DNA of 64,000 bases. Source: Lysobacteraceae bacterium (GTDB taxonomy: Bacteria > Bdellovibrionota > UBA1018 > JAGTJX01). Below, in pieces: positions 3 through 42,390 of this stretch. The notes under the pieces were generated by a model. That model was not told the origin of the DNA. It saw only the letters and a list, made by a program, of their open reading frames with translations, and made no database searches. The stretch spans positions 45,090-109,089 of the forward strand of contig JAGTJX010000001.1 of the NCBI GenBank assembly GCA_023657465.1, read 5' to 3'. Each line of letters begins with the position of its first letter. Within the stretch, counting starts at the first letter, position 1. Both the position numbers and the translations under genes were made by a program.

Positions 3-1190
3 AACGATCTGGTAAAATCCATTGAAGTAAAACAAAGCATTGAACGCGGTCTAAAAACCTATCCCGACGATCATAGAAGTCTTGCAAACCTCATTGATCG
101 TATTGAATGCCCTGACGCAACCCATGTTGATATCATCACAAAAACACCAGCTAAAGACAGCGGGCTTCTTGGAAAACTAACCGAACCCAATTACTCGCTT
201 CTAAAAATAAAGAGTGACGACCAAATTGATTTAAAAATTTCTTCTGGTGCATTTGCTTTGAAATCAATGAATGAAAATGAAGTTGTGTTAGTTCAAAATG
301 CCAACTGGTTTAAATTTTCTCCTGACATGGCTAAGGAAGTTATCATTAGACAGCCACCAATCACTTTCGATTCACAAAAAGGACTCTTGTCAGATCCTTG
401 GGCTAATATGATCGAGACATCCTCTCTAATCGACGCTGATACTCAACGTGCCTATGAAAAATCTAACTATCACATCTGGAAGCGACCGATTGATAAGGTA
501 TTCTTAGTGCGTCTGAGTCCCAAGCTTGAAAATACAGATGGGTTTCAGCTCTTAAGATTTCTACGCGACCGCTTGGATAAAAAGGTGATCTTGAACGGCC
601 TATCAGGAATCTCAGCAGGCGATCAAGTATTTCCTGTTTCCTTCCATCTGCATGACCCAAGCTATGCCGTCAAAACAAAAGAAAAGTCACTGCCAAGCTC
701 TCTAGGTAAAAGACCGCTCGAAGTAATCTATACACCATCACGCGTACCTCAGAATTTAGTCGAGAATTTCAAAAAAGCGATTACAGATGCTTATGGTGTC
801 GCACCCAAGATGATCCCAGTTGGACTAAAAGAGTCTTTCGTTCGCAGAGAAAAGAGCGACTTTGACCTGCACCTTGGAACAATGGGACTTGCTGATCCCG
901 ATCCAGAAGGAATTATGTCATTTTATCTTGAGAACAATCCTCCAGTGATTCCAAAAGGTGATGGAGTATTTTTAACTCGCCTTGATGAGGCTAGAAAAGA
1001 AAAAGACTTCAGCAAACGAGTAAAAATCTTCCGTGGAATTATTACTGATGCAACGCTCGGCGGATATATTCTTCCCGTATTTCATCTTTCCACCGTTGGA
1101 ATCGGTAAGCCTGAACTTGATTTTAGCCAAGTTTCACAAAGTGATGAATCCGTAACTCTATCAAAAGTTCGGTTCAGGAAAGCACAATGA
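3..1190 (+). CDS. hypothetical protein, 5' end outside window
   Basis: The frame of the listed 258..1190 ORF is open back to the window edge (reads NDLVKSIEVKQSIERGLKTYPDDHRSL...), so the TTG at 258 is probably not the start. Confidence 0.75.
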   Translation, partial: NDLVKSIEVKQSIERGLKTYPDDHRSLANLIDRIECPDATHVDIITKTPAKDSGLLGKLTEPNYSLLKIKSDDQIDLKISSGAFALKSMNENEVVLVQNANWFKFSPDMAKEVIIRQPPITFDSQKGLLSDPWANMIETSSLIDADTQRAYEKSNYHIWKRPIDKVFLVRLSPKLENTDGFQLLRFLRDRLDKKVILNGLSGISAGDQVFPVSFHLHDPSYAVKTKEKSLPSSLGKRPLEVIYTPSRVPQNLVENFKKAITDAYGVAPKMIPVGLKESFVRREKSDFDLHLGTMGLADPDPEGIMSFYLENNPPVIPKGDGVFLTRLDEARKEKDFSKRVKIFRGIITDATLGGYILPVFHLSTVGIGKPELDFSQVSQSDESVTLSKVRFRKAQ

Positions 1191-1197
1191 CCAATCT

Positions 1198-2619
1198 ATG
1201 AAGTCGAACATGAGCCTAAAATCATCACTTCACAAGACCACAGTTCGATGGTCGCTCATTGGTCTTGGGCTGAGTCTTTTACTGGGTGGCGGTACATTCA
1301 TTTACCTCACCAAGCAGTCCACCGAGGAGAGTACCAAGCTCCTAGCGCAGTCGCTTATGAGAGCGTTTCGACCCCAAATTCTTGAAGGCAACATTAGGGA
1401 TGCTCAATTTCAAATGAATCGAATTCTAGGTGATCTGAAAGATCAATCACTACGTGTGCTCGATAAGAACCAGCATAGTCTTTACCCACTTCCAGAAGAC
1501 AATGAAGCAAGTTTTTCTTGTCACAGTGACAAAATGTTATGTTGGAATGGCAACTTTCAATTCATCACCATTCTTGAACCAATCTATTTTGATGAAGATG
1601 TTTCAAAAGAGTTATTTGGATATGTTTCGATCAAGACCGCGCCTAAACCTCAGTGGTCAGTCATCGGTACCTTTCTTATATCAACTCTGCTTCTTTTCTG
1701 CGCTCAAGCGTGGGGATTGCTTGGCGCTCTAAAACAGATCACGCGAATGATTTTAGATCCTATTCAGTCATGGAGCAGTGATCTTTCCAAGAATGCCTTG
1801 ATGTCAGATTCAAAACAAATCGCAAAGGCTCCATTTTTAGAATTGGCCTCTATGGAAAGATCCATCCAAGGATTACGGACTGCGATTTCTGATCTTGAAA
1901 AAGAAGCATCAGACCAAGCAAGGAAACAAGCCCAAATTTCCATTGTGAGACAGATCGGACACGATCTTAAAACTCCACTGTCTCAAATCTCAAAGCTGTT
2001 TGATGCTCTCGTGAAAAAGGCACAAACCACACAGGAGGTTGACCCAAGCTGCGTCTATCAAATCGAACGATCTCTGAAACGCATGGGCGATCTCATTCGC
2101 CAGATAAAAGAACTCAACGAAGGTGAGCCAAAAGGTAATGCTCAAACACCAATTGAAGTTGGTAATGAACTTTTTGAGGCCATGGAATCAGCCAAATCCA
2201 TGATCGCAAGCACAGATAAAAATGCGGTTAGAATTGAACTTGCAAGACCAAGTACAGTTGCATTTACATCTGTACCTGAAACTAAATTTTTTCAAATCAT
2301 CGACAATTTACTTCGTAACGCGATTGACGCTGTAGACTCCAGAAATGGAATAGTCTCTGTGAGCTACGCCTCTTCTGATGATTCCATCCAGATCTCTGTC
2401 AAAGATAACGGGACAGGAATTTCAAATGATATTCAAGACAAAATATTTGACCTCGACTTTACTACCAAACAAGGAAAAGGAACGGGTCTTGGTCTTCCTA
2501 TCATCAAAAGAATCTGTAGCAGTTACGGCGGTAAGATCGAACTTCGATCAAAACTAGACGAAGGATCAGAATTTATTGTTCATTTACCAAAATTTCACGA
2601 AAGAGGTGCAAACACATGA
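1198..2619 (+). CDS. membrane sensor histidine kinase
   Basis: N-terminal TM helix, second TM near residue 160, H-box 'RQIGHDLKTPLSQI', N-box 'DNLLRNAIDAV', G-boxes 'DNGTGIS' and 'GKGTGLGLPI'. Confidence 0.93.
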   Translation: MKSNMSLKSSLHKTTVRWSLIGLGLSLLLGGGTFIYLTKQSTEESTKLLAQSLMRAFRPQILEGNIRDAQFQMNRILGDLKDQSLRVLDKNQHSLYPLPEDNEASFSCHSDKMLCWNGNFQFITILEPIYFDEDVSKELFGYVSIKTAPKPQWSVIGTFLISTLLLFCAQAWGLLGALKQITRMILDPIQSWSSDLSKNALMSDSKQIAKAPFLELASMERSIQGLRTAISDLEKEASDQARKQAQISIVRQIGHDLKTPLSQISKLFDALVKKAQTTQEVDPSCVYQIERSLKRMGDLIRQIKELNEGEPKGNAQTPIEVGNELFEAMESAKSMIASTDKNAVRIELARPSTVAFTSVPETKFFQIIDNLLRNAIDAVDSRNGIVSVSYASSDDSIQISVKDNGTGISNDIQDKIFDLDFTTKQGKGTGLGLPIIKRICSSYGGKIELRSKLDEGSEFIVHLPKFHERGANT

Positions 2620-3974
2620 AGTATAGAATTTTAACGATTGACGATGATGTCGAAAATCTTCAAGCCAATAAAATATTTTTGGAAGCCTGCGAATACTCTG
2701 TCGATGTGGCTACAAATGGTCATGATGGGCTGAAACTAATTCAGAACGCGTTCTCTGATTATGCTGCGGTTCTCTTAGACTATCGAATGCCAGGAATGTC
2801 AGGGGCAGAAACGGCGCTCAAGATCAAAGAGATCAACCCCGATCTTCCTATCCTCATGTACTCCTGCGATGATAGCGGAGACACTATCAAACAAAGTTAT
2901 AGATCTGGTATTGAGGATTTTATCGACAAAGATGAGAGTCGAGACAAACTAAAACTTGCACTAGAACTCGCTTGTAAAAAATATGAGGAGATGAAGGTTT
3001 CAAAGCCAGCATCTCCTACCGAGAATCAAAAGCTACTTGAAACTATAGGAATGATCGGTTGCTCTGAGTCCATGGCGGAAGTGGCCAAGTCTGCTTTGAA
3101 ATACGCTACACTTGGCTCTCCTGTTCTACTTACGGGTGAAACAGGTGTAGGCAAAGAGCTTATTGCGCGAGCACTCCACCCAAAATCCATGAATTCTTTT
3201 TATGGTCTGAATTGCGCATCGTTCGCGCAAAATAATCTGATTGAATCAGAACTGTTCGGTTACGAAAAAGGCGCGTTTACTGGTGCTGATAATAGAAAAA
3301 TTGGCATGCTAGAGTCTATCGGAGATGGAACTATTTTTTTAGATGAGATACACCATCTCACTCCTCAAGCTCAGGCCACTTTGCTCCGCGCACTTTGTGA
3401 AAAGAAAATCAGAAGAATAGGGGGTCTACAGGAAATCCCTATCACTTGTAGAATTATTGCTGCAACAAAACCGGAGATCACTTCACTCATTCAAAAAGGA
3501 CAATTCTTGGCGGATTTGTATTACCGCTTAAAAGTTTTAACTATTGAGGTTCCTGCGCTTCGAGATCGCCCTGAAGATATTGAACCGCTTGTTCATCACT
3601 TTTGTCGACTTATTGAAAATGAAACCAAAACAAAAAAAGAGTTTCGATTGAATGTTATCAGAAGTTTTGAGGAATATAGTTGGCCTGGAAACATTCGAGA
3701 GCTTGAGGGAGTTATTAGGCAACTTTTTGCGAGTTCAAAGGATTACTATATTGGAGCCGAAGACCTTAAGGGTAATATCAAAGAAATATTGAATCACAGT
3801 AATAATCGAGTCACAGCGCTTGATACATTTGATCGAAAGCAGCTCAGACAACGACGTGATTATATTTCTACTATCCTGCGCAGCTCGCGCTCGAAGAGGC
3901 AGGCCGCTGATCGCCTTGGAATCAATGAGAGTACGCTCAGAGGACTCATGAATAATCTCGAAATCAGGATATAA
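2616..3974 (+). CDS. sigma-54-dependent response regulator (NtrC family)
   Basis: Receiver domain (TIDDDVEN, LLDYRMPGMSG), Walker A 'GETGVGKE', 'GAFTGA' loop, C-terminal HTH; overlaps the kinase by 4 nt. Confidence 0.95.
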   Translation: MKYRILTIDDDVENLQANKIFLEACEYSVDVATNGHDGLKLIQNAFSDYAAVLLDYRMPGMSGAETALKIKEINPDLPILMYSCDDSGDTIKQSYRSGIEDFIDKDESRDKLKLALELACKKYEEMKVSKPASPTENQKLLETIGMIGCSESMAEVAKSALKYATLGSPVLLTGETGVGKELIARALHPKSMNSFYGLNCASFAQNNLIESELFGYEKGAFTGADNRKIGMLESIGDGTIFLDEIHHLTPQAQATLLRALCEKKIRRIGGLQEIPITCRIIAATKPEITSLIQKGQFLADLYYRLKVLTIEVPALRDRPEDIEPLVHHFCRLIENETKTKKEFRLNVIRSFEEYSWPGNIRELEGVIRQLFASSKDYYIGAEDLKGNIKEILNHSNNRVTALDTFDRKQLRQRRDYISTILRSSRSKRQAADRLGINESTLRGLMNNLEIRI

Positions 3975-14429: not shown

Positions 14430-15209
14430 GTGAGACATTACTCGTTTTTAATCTTGCTCTTCTTTTGGTTTTCTCCCTCATTTGCAGAAATGCCTCGGGG
14501 TGCTTTCAAAGACCTTCAGAAACTCACTCTTCGAATATTTTCGAACTTCCCTCCTAAAAACTATTGTTACATTGGAATCGGCGCATCGCCGACTCCAATG
14601 ATCGCATTATTTCAAGAGCTAGGCGTATCTGCCGCAAACTTCCCATTCTCAAGATCTTCTCTGCACAGTACTAGTGTACAAAGGGAAAAAAGAGATTCTC
14701 TAATAGGAAGTAGAATCATAAGACACTTCATTCACTTTACACCCAGCCAGACACTTCCAAGCTCTGTCTGTTATAACAAAAAAATTATTTTTATAGATTT
14801 TACAGCAACAGGCGAATCGCTTTCTAAGTTTGAGAGCGCATTGTTTTTCGTAAAAAAACACCACTCAGAACTTTACGAGCATGAGCCTTTTCTCCTAGCG
14901 CTTACCGGAAGGGAACTTCCTTTTCAAATGTTGGAATCTAACAACATTAACTATATGGAAGTTGGCACTGATCTTTTTAAGGAATTGAACTATAGCTCTT
15001 ATGACAAATTAAGAGAGTTTGACGTCTGGTTGGCTACTATGGAGAAGTACTCTTATGCATCAAAGGATGCCTATCGCTCTTTTAGAAAATCAATTAAAAG
15101 ACAACTTGAAGCCGATGAGAAGTTTTGTACCCGGTTACGGACAGCTCTTGAAACAGGAGAAATAAAATTTAATTTTTGTGAAAAACTTCTTTATACATTT
15201 GGTTACTAG
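14430..15209 (+). CDS. secreted hypothetical protein with a possible phosphoribosyltransferase-like fold
   Basis: Signal peptide MRHYSFLILLFFWFSPSFA; 'CYIGIGASPTPMIAL' and 'IIFIDFTATGESLSKF' resemble PRTase loops. Confidence 0.7.
   Translation: MRHYSFLILLFFWFSPSFAEMPRGAFKDLQKLTLRIFSNFPPKNYCYIGIGASPTPMIALFQELGVSAANFPFSRSSLHSTSVQREKRDSLIGSRIIRHFIHFTPSQTLPSSVCYNKKIIFIDFTATGESLSKFESALFFVKKHHSELYEHEPFLLALTGRELPFQMLESNNINYMEVGTDLFKELNYSSYDKLREFDVWLATMEKYSYASKDAYRSFRKSIKRQLEADEKFCTRLRTALETGEIKFNFCEKLLYTFGY
14571..14599 (+). other. intragenic 13-bp stem (one mismatch), 3-nt loop
   Basis: attggaatcggcg-cat-cgccgactccaat. Confidence 0.6.
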
Positions 15210-16526
15210 ATTGATCTGAGCGGCTTAGAGATTCTCTTACGAAACGACCAGCTCATATAGTAAGTCCACACACAGCTGACCACTCCTACAATAGACAAAA
15301 CGATAAACACTTGAGCTCACCTGAGTTTGTCTGACATGACTCCCGCTCCCCATGCAGCAAATGCACCACCAAAGTAGCCCACTCCATCGATGATCCCCGT
15401 ACAATTTCCCGCACCTTTAGTCCCTGCAATATCTAAGCTTAAGCAGCCTGCTGACATCGAGTAAGGACTATAGAGGAAGAATCCACCGAGTACTAAGAAC
15501 GTCACGATCCACTATTGATATTCGAGACTATAAGGAATAAGTGCTGCAATTACAGCGAGGGAAACCACTAAGCCCACAAGCATGAGAGCCATCATTCGCG
15601 CACAATCTCCATTCTTGGCATGATGATCCGTATACCAAACTATAAAGATAGTTCCCAAGCATCCTAGTAGTGGAAACACCGCTGATATCATTGCAGCGTT
15701 AGCATTCCCCATTCCGATATCGACTAAGAATTTAAAAGTCCAAAATAGAAAAATACTTCTGAGTAAGTGTGCAAGGAAACTAAACACCACTACTTGTCTG
15801 AAGAGAGGAACCTTAAACAACCCAACCAAGATCTCCATCGTTTCGGGATGATGATCGGGATCTTGATTGAATGCCGCAAAAAGACTTCTTCGTGCTAGAG
15901 TTTTTACCAAACTTCACACTCTTCACTACATCCCGAGGTGATTCCTGCGATGAATACATCGATACGATGGCGATGAAAGTAACTACGATAGCAGGAATGA
16001 AGAACAAACCCTTCCATCCAATTCCAAGAGCAATAAGACTTGCTCAGAACATCGAAGCCGCGACACTTCCAAATTGAAAGTTAATACTGATGAGCCCCAT
16101 GATCATACCGTTACGTTCAGGCTCGTACCATTCGCCAATAACCTTAATAATCCCACCCCAACCCATGGAGAGGAAGTAGCGACAGAAGCACCAAATCAGT
16201 GTGAACCATAGAATCGACTGATAAAGGGGGAAGAGAAGATTAAACAGAATTCCACCCACATTCCTACAATGAAAATTTTCTTGCCACCGATTTTGTCAGC
16301 TAAAGGTCCTGTAGTGAATTTACAGAGTAAATTCCAATTCTGAAAAAGTCATGACGATACCAAATTGAGAGTTAGTAAAATGGAATGTATCGTTGAGCAG
16401 AGGAATAGTGACCACAAGGTTTCCTCTGATGAGGTAATAACCCTCATAACCTACCAGCTTCACCCAAAACGTAGATGTTCTCCACCTACCCAGTCGAATC
16501 AGCTCTTGCGTTGTAGGTGTTTTCAT
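15206..16526 (-). pseudogene. degraded MFS organophosphate transporter (GlpT/PgtP-like)
   Basis: Fragments read in order as one protein: 'RTSTFWVKLVGYEGYYLIRGNLVVTIPLL', 'GKFTTGPLADKIGGKKIFIVGMWV', 'GILFNLLFPL', 'ALGIGWKGLFFIPA', 'KVPLFRQVVVFSFLAHLLR', 'SAGCLSLDIAGTKGAGNCTGIIDGVGYFGGAFAAWGAG'. In-frame stops at 16044-16046, 15512-15514 and 15317-15319, plus at least three frameshifts. Confidence 0.93.
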
Positions 16527-16542
16527 ATGTAAACAGTATTAC

Positions 16543-17151
16543 ATGAAGTCTTATGATTCTATTATTTTTGACTTCGGCGGAGTCATCCTACCGATTAATT
16601 TCCAGCGTACAATTAACGCATTCAAAGTTCTAGGTATGGAATTGGATTCAAATTTTGGTTTCTTGAGCCAATCACCCATCTTTGATCAGTGGGATAAGGG
16701 ACTAGTCGACACTCAACAAATCCTGAGATTTTTTAGATCTAAACTTTCTGGTAATGAGCGCAATAAAACTTCAGACGCTGCTTTGGTTTCAGCTTGGAAT
16801 GCAATACTAGGACAGATCCCACTTCATCGAGTTGAATGGCTTGAAAAACTATCCGCGAAGCTTCCACTCTTTCTGTTTTCAAATACCAACCACATTCACA
16901 TTGATCGACTAAGAGAAGTCGATCCACTGATGCCTAGGTTTGAGAAGGTTTTTAAGAAGGCGTACTACTCATACGAAATGCGAATGAGGAAGCCTGATGC
17001 CGATGGATTTCTTAAGATCGCAAGTGAGCAGGGATTAAAAATCGAACATACTCTTTTTGTGGATGATCATCCCAAGAATATTGAAGCCGCTAGTAAGTTA
17101 GGATTTCAAACGCTACATTGTACAGGCGAAATCACCCAGTTATTAGATTGA
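16543..17151 (+). CDS. HAD-family hydrolase
   Basis: 'IIFDFGGVILPI', 'LFLFSNTNHIH', 'MRKPDADGF', 'TLFVDDHPKNIEAA'. Confidence 0.9.
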   Translation: MKSYDSIIFDFGGVILPINFQRTINAFKVLGMELDSNFGFLSQSPIFDQWDKGLVDTQQILRFFRSKLSGNERNKTSDAALVSAWNAILGQIPLHRVEWLEKLSAKLPLFLFSNTNHIHIDRLREVDPLMPRFEKVFKKAYYSYEMRMRKPDADGFLKIASEQGLKIEHTLFVDDHPKNIEAASKLGFQTLHCTGEITQLLD

Positions 17152-39731: not shown

Positions 39732-42390
39732 TTATTTTAGCTCCACTGATTTTAAAATATATGGATCATAATATTTTTTACGGATTTTGGATATCCGTGG
39801 ACCTAAGATGCTGATCGCCTTTTGATAGACGAGCGGAACGAGAACAATTTCATTTCTCGTAAGTTCCTCATCACATTTTTTAAACCAACTTTCACGTTCT
39901 TTCTCCGACTGTGAGCTTTTTGCAAACATCAATGCGTCGTCATAGGAGGTGGATTGCCACTTCTTCCCATATCTCGCTCCTGTTCCGTAGGGCTCATAAT
40001 AATATGCAGGATCAAAAAACGAACCACTAAAGTCTCTGATCAGGATATGCCAATCTTTTGTATCTCTCATGAGAGCATAGCGCTTCTGATCGGGCTCAAG
40101 TTTGAGTCTCAAATCGATACCGATAGACTTCTTCAGTTCCTTCTTAAGAAACTGCGCAAGCCTTATATTATCTTCTCGTGCTGCATCAAAACAAGGTACA
40201 AGAACATCGAGAGTGACTGTATTAAGTGAGAACATTTCTCTGATAGCTTTTTTAGCAATGACTGGATCGTAAGCTACTCCGCCTTTTGCATCATAAGACA
40301 TAAACCCGGAAGGAACATAACTGCCAGCGGGCACGAATCGTTTTCCCATTTCTTTGGCAAGAGCATCTCTAGGTATCGCTTGAGCGATTGCTTTTCTGAA
40401 TTTTTGTAGACCTGTAGGATATTTGACAAAATTAAACTCTAATCGTTTTGTGAGTTGTGGTGCGTGATAACTCAGAAGTGCGTTCTTAGGAAGCTTAGTC
40501 AGAGACTCAACAGGTGCATGGAACACCATATCTACTTTGTCATTCTTGAGTAATATCAATCCTTCTTCTAAGGCTCCAATCACAAACTCCAATCGATCAA
40601 ATTGAGGTCGAGCAGAGAAGTAGCTTGGATTTCGCTTCAAAGTAAAAGATTGATTTTCGTTATGTTCCGCGAGAGTGAAAGGTCCAAGCGTAATCATCGC
40701 ACCTGGCTTCGTCCAAAGATTAGGACTCTTTGTTACGAGTGACTGTCTAATGGGAAAAAAATTAGGAGAAGCTGTTCTGAGGTACCAATTAAAATTTTGA
40801 GTTTTTAGTTTTACCTCAAGTTCAGAAGTAGAGAGAGCCGTAACTTCTTCAATATCGGCCATCATGTAACTTGTAGAGAATCCATTAGCAGGATTCATCA
40901 CACGCTTCCAGCTCGACACGAAGTCATCAGCACTCAGAGGCTTATCATCGGACCAAAGAATATTTTTATTCAGAGTAAAATTAAACTTTCTACCGTCCTT
41001 TGAAACTCTCCAAGACTGAGCAATGAGGGGATGAACTTTTCCTAGCTCATCAATTTCGATAAGCCCTTCTTGAAGATTAAGAATCACAGGAAAGTCTGCT
41101 GCGCTTGCAGTTTGATTCCAATCCAGAGTCACGACATCTTGCGGAAGAAAAACCCTGAGTGCCTTCTCTCTAAATGCAGCCTGGGCACTATTCACACCCA
41201 GTGAAAATCCTCCGATATATGGACGACCTACGTTGGGTAACACTCCTCCCAACATCAGTAAGATGCTAGAGGCAAAGTAAATACTCATGAATCTTGAGGA
41301 CTTCATAAACTGAGGAAACCGATTCCACCGCATGATAATAGGATAAATCGAAATAGGAAAAAGTGCCCAAAAAGTATGTGCAGAAGGTCCTTTTATTGAG
41401 AATAGAAACATAAAACCTGTGGCTAGCGGCAGAAGCACGACCCAGAGGTCTAGTCGTGATTGTGGTTTCTTAAAATAAAACCTCAAGAGCGTCATAACTA
41501 CAATTAAAACGCTCACTGTCATAGAAATGATAAATACAGGCGTAAGCCAAAGATGATTTCCTACAGTCTCTAGAGCTTGTTGGAATCCCCTTCCCCTCCC
41601 CATAAATCGTGTGATTTCAGCAGTTGGAAAAGTCAGGAAGCGTCCGAACATTTTGAAGAGGTCGCCCACCTTCTCAAAACTAAACACAATATTGGACTCC
41701 AATTGGTCGACATGCCCGACAGAATTCTTCACTCGGTCAATGATGTAAGGAATGAGAGTAATCGTACCTAAGAAACTACCGAGAATGATTTGTATTAGAG
41801 GTTTTTTTTTGCATTGACTTCTCATCAAGGAGCAAGAGTACGAATGCACCGAATCCAAGAATCACAAACGAAAGATGAAGTTGAAATCCTAAAACAAAAG
41901 ACAATCCTAATAAAACATATTGCTTCCTGCTTCTCACTCCAGAAAAAATTTGAGTTGCTGAATAAAACCAAATCGTAGCTGGTAGAAGCATGAGGCTTGA
42001 GTTCAAAGCATCTGAGAATAAAATAGGCCAAGGTGAGAGGAATACAAATGCTGCAAGCATGTCTTGAGACATCTTCAAATCAAGGGTGCGATAAGCCTTA
42101 AAAATAATCCATGCTGAAATCCAAGAGTAAGCGGCACCAGCAAAAGCAAATCCCCAAAGAGCACCACGGGAAATAAAAAGCGGAATTCCTGTCATGAGAT
42201 CAAGTAGTGATCCTGGAATTGAAGTGCCTGAGTAAACCACACGAGCGCCAACTACGCCGAGAACTCCGGTTTGATAAAACTTAAGGGCTGACAAGTATAC
42301 TGCTTCTGCATCCGTAGAGAATTCACCAAATATTGCAAAAACAAATCTCAATGCCAGTCCCAAACCTGCAATGAGATAGATATTTTTCAT
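39732..42390 (-). CDS. GT-C-like polytopic membrane domain fused to an OppA/SBP_bac_5 domain; frame interrupted at A9
   Basis: Track ORFs 41776..42390 and 39732..41858 join as ...LLLLDEKSMQKK|PLIQIILGSFLG... if one A of the A9 (41802-41810) is skipped. The C-terminal half has 'LQEGLIEIDELGKVHPLIAQSWRVSKDGRKFNFTLNKNILWSDDKPLSADDFVSSWKRVMNP'. Confidence 0.8.

Follow-up and report, generated by a model that had tools for sequence, protein, structure and literature searches.

Can a membrane enzyme of the GT-C glycosyltransferase class and a complete solute-binding protein (SBP) be parts of a single polypeptide? This question is raised by a locus on the minus strand of a contig from an uncultured Bdellovibrionota bacterium (positions 39732-42390 of the window, that is, of the whole 64,000-nucleotide stretch of DNA that was analysed), for which the original prediction envisaged about 440 residues of polytopic membrane sequence running in frame into an SBP_bac_5 domain. 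The explanation favored here, tentatively and with a probability of roughly 0.47, is a lineage-specific chimeric GT-C/SBP gene in which the frame is interrupted by a recent or spurious break and from which the full-length protein is made now or was made until recently.

Organization of the locus

As indicated by the ORF list and the translations, the locus consists of two open reading frames (ORFs) in different frames that overlap by 83 nt. ORF2 is listed with a TTG start, and its first ATG is located at position 41825. The features of the locus are the following:

41776-42390, minus strand: ORF1, 204 aa; GT-C-like N-terminal half with TM1, external loop 1 (EL1) containing the candidate catalytic Asp, and TM2-TM6
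39732-41858, minus strand: ORF2, 708 aa from TTG; C-terminal GT-C half in frame with SBP_bac_5
42310-42312, minus strand: codon of Asp27 in 'EFSTDAEAVY', a candidate for the catalytic residue in external loop 1 of GT-C enzymes; the same residue is found in all 25 aligned family members
41802-41810, minus strand: A9 run (T9 on the plus strand), where the frame of ORF1 gives way to that of ORF2
41235-41804, minus strand: GT-C part of ORF2, TM7-TM11; a conserved motif, 'FSIKGPSAHTFW', is found between helices TM9 and TM10
41235-41291, minus strand: last TM helix, ORF2 residues 190-208, from hydropathy, charges and alignment to the last helix of the relatives
41178-41234, minus strand: junction of ~19 residues, 'NVGRPYIGGFSLGVNSAQA', from the last TM helix to the SBP; open in the ORF2 frame, with stops in the other two
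39735-41177, minus strand: SBP_bac_5 (Opp/Dpp/MppA-type) domain, ORF2 residues 228-708, from profile, PDB-relative and fold matches
40020-40022, minus strand: codon of Ser613; all 13 aligned SBP relatives have Asp in this column, as do the DppE and MppA chains

The two ORFs belong to a minus-strand gene string that consists of proS, pyrF, an M28-type peptidase, a TrmH-type methyltransferase, ORF1, ORF2, recO and a GreA/B-type factor (the neighbor names were assigned by reading the translations). ORF1 shares the 4 nt at its start with the end of the TrmH-like gene that precedes it, the recO start codon directly abuts the ORF2 stop codon, and recO overlaps the GreA/B-type gene by 4 nt. In the recO neighborhoods of 29 relatives, neither a GT-C nor an SBP gene adjoins recO. 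No permease ORF adjoins ORF2 within the window; matches to PF00528 (permease) and further SBP_bac_5 proteins are encoded elsewhere in the same genome. At positions 258-3974 of the window (plus strand), an ORF resembling the C-terminal part of a solute-binding protein lies directly ahead of genes for a sensor histidine kinase and a sigma-54-type response regulator; a Pfam search of this SBP-like ORF gave no match, and the locus is a possible binding-protein-linked two-component system.

The frame break at the A9 tract

ORF1 and ORF2 cross where the minus strand reads GATGAGAAGTCAATGC-AAAAAAAAA-CCTCTAATAC, and a tract with one A fewer (A8) or two more (A11) would yield a single frame of 885 aa. 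In alignments with homologs, no gap opens where ORF1 (...DEKSMQKK) passes into ORF2 (PLIQIILG...). A codon-usage model trained on 96,000 codons of the same genome, applied over the whole length, scores frame 0 best up to the A9 run and frame 1 best beyond it, with weak values (0 to 0.1) in places within the C-terminal GT-C part. Given the two ORFs, the gapless homologs and the switch of codon frame at A9, the 440 in-frame residues originally proposed amount to a read-through of a one-base frameshift: the in-frame connection is genuine for ORF2 residues ~17-208, the second membrane half, which continue into the SBP (228-708), but the first membrane half lies in ORF1, in another frame. As a result of the break, only ORF1 and ORF2 can be made from the locus as assembled, and the TM1-7 core is not contained in one continuous chain. 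A -1 ribosomal frameshift, considered as a route from ORF1 into ORF2, leads into the wrong frame.

The break interrupts the K-rich loop that connects TM6 with TM7 and is predicted to be cytoplasmic, and the GT-C part contains no second lesion over ~1.1 kb, with Asp27, QLHLS and FSIKGPSAHTFW all kept. Because both halves retain the coding signal and the conserved motifs and there is no second lesion, the break is most likely recent or spurious; it may be an assembly miscall, a fresh replication slip or a tolerated A9. Runs of nine A are prone to slippage in many bacteria, and genes frameshifted from A8 to A9 stay productive via transcriptional slippage as 'pseudo pseudogenes' (Baranov et al. 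2005, PMC1088944).

The homopolymer statistics, which cover 464 kb of the genome, include 19 runs of at least nine A or T, of which 7, including one in proS, are deep inside intact ORFs. With at least seven long tracts in intact ORFs, such runs cannot all be assembly miscalls. Two further tracts, A10 at L049:5024 and A9 at L122:1501, are found at apparent frame breaks where the family matches are below the cut-off. At the A10 run, an N-terminus that is SH3-like and secreted meets a C-terminus that resembles a beta-barrel, the two being encoded in different frames (L049:4714-5612, also G000:C4, plus strand); this may be another gene of the genome that is subject to slippage or phase variation. 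The A9 run interrupts the frame of a DUF6036-like nucleotidyltransferase gene (L122:1295-1835; G000:C2 near 85778). An MFS-like transporter gene within the window (15206-16543, minus strand) is split across frames by several indels and stops, none of them at homopolymers, and looks like a genuine pseudogene, indicating that real gene decay occurs in this lineage.

The GT-C membrane part

The membrane part is all but invisible to Pfam: ORF1 matches PMT_2 at E=0.1 only, the four nearest GT-C relatives gave nothing useful, and among 25 family members just three match PMT_2 at E<=0.1, the strongest of them at 4.9e-6. When PDB sequences were searched with a profile of the family, only weak CydC matches came up, so that a fold search was needed; it was run on a relative, G003 (486 aa), rather than on the window protein. 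The AlphaFold model of G003 (mean pLDDT 80.9, pTM 0.82) contains ~11 TM helices. Its top Foldseek match is ArnT (E=5.9e-5 and 1.1e-4); human OST-A (E=5.5e-4), ALG12, an Archaeoglobus OST, ALG9 and AftB are also matched, all of these with a probability of 1.00, whereas MFS-type matches remain below 0.55. The TM-scores are moderate (~0.36-0.47 by query), so this is evidence of fold class and not of orthology. Judging from this model, the membrane part has the GT-C fold, in agreement with the original prediction. Modelled by itself, the GT-C half of ORF2 gave a poor structure.

The proposal that 'FSTDAEAVY' carries the catalytic Asp likewise held up as far as conservation goes. Asp27 of ORF1 corresponds to D46 of G003, which is invariant in the 25 sequences and is located at the start of the EL1 helix (H45-60) in the model; in GT-CA enzymes, an essential Asp occupies the tip of the EL1 helix (PMC12041299). 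In the family alignment, a QxHxS motif is conserved besides this Asp. Neither ORF1 nor ORF2 contains the WWD motif in translation, which in STT3/PglB is the acceptor-recognition motif of the C-terminal domain.

With the N-terminus inside and ~11 TM helices, the C-terminus would be periplasmic, and the K/R-rich loops before the last helix agree with this topology. One such loop (MRWNRFPQFMKSSR) precedes the helix of ORF2 residues 190-208, which, by its flanking charges, probably runs from the cytoplasm to the periplasm. The TM count and these loops also place the SBP on the predicted periplasmic side, as had been proposed.

The junction and the solute-binding domain

ORF2 residues 274-630 match positions 1-366 of the 368 in the SBP_bac_5 profile (213.2 bits against a cut-off of 32.4, E=8e-63). 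In the structural model, the pLDDT blocks of the SBP part are mostly 84-96 and mostly above 80, and the fold matches OppA, DppE, MppA, YliB and others with TM-scores of 0.73-0.88 by target length; the nearest solved relatives are DppE, AapF, MppA and OppA. At the junction, there is no hidden stop, start or signal peptide, and the other two frames are full of stops; hence the in-frame fusion of the second membrane half is real in this assembly. A signal peptide or lost start codon concealed in another frame of the junction is ruled out by the same stops. The domain has neither a cleavable signal peptide nor a lipobox of its own and follows the last GT-C helix in frame, which bears out the earlier description of a complete SBP_bac_5 domain without a separate signal peptide.

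In OppA, Asp419 binds the N-terminus of the peptide, and the column of Ser613 is the position of this OppA-type anchoring Asp. The replacement of Asp by Ser in this column, together with the absence of ~11-15 residues near ORF2 residue 336 compared with the aligned relatives, suggests an SBP other than a standard peptide binder.

Relatives and distribution

ORF1 has homologs in other genomes at E=7.5e-31 and the membrane part of ORF2 at E=3.3e-21, so that both pieces have relatives well beyond chance. Five other genomes of the order, which GTDB lists under titles of Bdellovibrionales and related MAGs, encode GT-C relatives that match both halves with 30-43% identity; all five are stand-alone genes of 383-486 aa. 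One of these (L039:4152-5507, G048) is interrupted by a single TGA between its halves. In a profile search, the family or its distant kin was detected in 48 of the 369 genomes of the phylum, in frames that are nearly all ~350-525 aa. The family, with its invariant D, Q and H residues, is hardly detected by curated Pfam models and was brought out by this analysis.

Two weak matches in frames of 675 and 692 aa aside, none of the 368 further genomes compared within the phylum showed the fusion, and no relative was found with the fusion as the query across 85,462 species genomes; with the GT-C alignment as the query, the five stand-alone relatives already described came back and no others. In 75 genomes, SBP relatives at E<=1e-40 are encoded in frames of 389-609 aa, and only the frame in the window reaches 709. 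Two other arrangements were considered and rejected: GT-C and SBP genes kept side by side, as no SBP is encoded near any GT-C relative examined, and a fused state behind the long SBP frames of two relatives (G016 and G018), which are devoid of a recognisable GT-C part. The original prediction had staked itself on the relatives not all having two separate genes; as far as tested, every other GT-C and SBP homolog found is a separate gene. On the sequences compared, the fusion is private to this genome and is not a conserved system. The nearest compared genomes belong to other families.

Alternative explanations

The main rival to the chimeric enzyme, which we consider somewhat unlikely, is a GT-C part that is decaying or already a pseudogene, with only the SBP kept by selection; the SBP would be translated from an internal start (e.g., ATG 41304-41306, MKSSRFMSIYFASSILLMLGG...) and use the old last TM helix as a signal anchor. 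The A9 frameshift and the decayed MFS gene in the same window fit this scenario, and the hydrophobic segment, with K/R ahead and an AQA-A site behind, does resemble a signal peptide or anchor. However, the internal ATGs lack a good ribosome-binding site, the codon signal persists in the GT-C part, and a decaying gene is hard to reconcile with ~1.1 kb of sequence that retains Asp27, QLHLS and FSIKGPSAHTFW without a second lesion. It is quite unlikely that the locus encodes a split or switchable enzyme, in which ORF1 and ORF2 would be made as two chains by translational coupling, or slippage during replication or transcription would give the full-length protein in some of the cells or transcripts. 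The position of the break in the cytoplasmic K-rich loop between TM6 and TM7, the overlapping ORFs with an ATG at 41825, the slippage-prone nature of A9 in many bacteria (PMC1088944) and the A10 and A9 tracts at two other apparent frame breaks are all compatible with such an arrangement; yet no close relative is available to show conservation of A9, at least seven other tracts of at least nine A or T lie inside intact ORFs, and a -1 ribosomal frameshift would miss the frame of ORF2.

Joining of two separate genes by misassembly is very unlikely: the fusion is indeed known from a single genome and the genes are separate in every relative, but the join is in frame, coincides with a helix-to-domain boundary and sits among closely packed genes of a contig of 909 kb, and a misassembly would rarely leave 708 open codons. 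Equally improbable is the model of the original prediction, an oligosaccharyltransferase-like enzyme that captures a peptide via the SBP and glycosylates it. The GT-C fold and an SBP_bac_5 domain on the predicted periplasmic side speak for this model; nevertheless, the enzymes of the relatives have no SBP, the peptide-anchoring Asp is replaced by Ser in contrast to 13 of 13 SBP relatives, the WWD motif of STT3/PglB is absent from both ORFs, and the gene is frameshifted. Peptide capture for glycosylation is thus unsupported, and the Ser613 column weakens it.

A tentative model of the chimeric enzyme

In favor of the chimeric gene count the ~190 residues of GT-C sequence that ORF2 joins to the SBP, the junction free of hidden signals, the gapless relatives and the codon-frame switch at A9, the fold matches of both parts, the conserved Asp27 and QxHxS, the published precedent for slippage, and tight packing with the trmH-like gene and recO. 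Against it count the occurrence in a single genome that lacks close relatives on which selection could be tested, the assembled frameshift, the MFS-like pseudogene in the window and the weak codon score, as well as Ser613, the deletion near residue 336 and the poor model of the GT-C half of ORF2. If the chimeric gene is nevertheless what the locus represents, the gene of a stand-alone GT-C enzyme would have gained at its 3' end, in frame, the sequence of an Opp/Dpp-type solute-binding protein, whose discarded signal peptide was replaced by the last TM helix. For the GT-C part, the donor on the periplasmic side would be a polyprenyl-phosphate-linked sugar, and the SBP would be tethered in the periplasm beside the catalytic face of the enzyme, where it would bind an acceptor or a regulating ligand. 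ArnT, AftB, Emb and PglB carry other C-terminal domains at that periplasmic position. A full-length product would require transcriptional slippage (to 8 or 11 A), a change of the tract at the DNA level, or an A9 that is an assembly miscall.

It appears rather unlikely that the locus encodes a working GT-C enzyme with the SBP as a periplasmic specificity or sensing domain, gated by A9 slippage or operating as two chains; with the joined gene broken, the fusion may be a curiosity rather than a functional enzyme. A full-length protein, should one be produced, would on the searches made here be the first GT-C enzyme with an ABC-type binding protein (literature searches for a described GT-C/SBP fusion returned nothing) and a natural design that couples the capture of a ligand to the transfer of a sugar; with a real and fixed frameshift, this is merely a private decaying gene.

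Comparison with known systems

The A9 break resembles those of the 'pseudo pseudogenes' (PMC1088944) in that nine A interrupt a frame that eight would restore, although slippage at this locus is hypothetical. The membrane part is similar to the GT-C (GT-CA) enzymes, namely ArnT, AftB/Emb, ALG12/ALG9 and STT3/PglB, in its predicted TM fold, the invariant EL1 Asp and the predicted periplasmic C-terminus; AftB, for example, combines 11 TM with a C-terminal periplasmic domain (PMC12041299). The locus differs from these enzymes in that the C-terminal addition is a complete SBP_bac_5 domain, the gene is frameshifted between TM6 and TM7, and its nearest relatives have no reliable Pfam match. The locus also resembles the uncharacterised stand-alone GT-C-like family of Bdellovibrionota (e.g., MAG SJ854, JADZFF010000057), with 30-43% identity per half and the conserved residues in common; in that family, a single gene of 383-486 aa is neither fused to an SBP nor adjoined by one. 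With the Opp/Dpp/MppA-type SBPs, among which DppE, AapF and MppA are the best PDB matches, the C-terminal part shares the full-length domain and the predicted fold, but here there is no adjoining permease gene, the peptide-anchoring column has changed from Asp to Ser, and a GT-C helix serves as the anchor in place of a signal peptide of its own.
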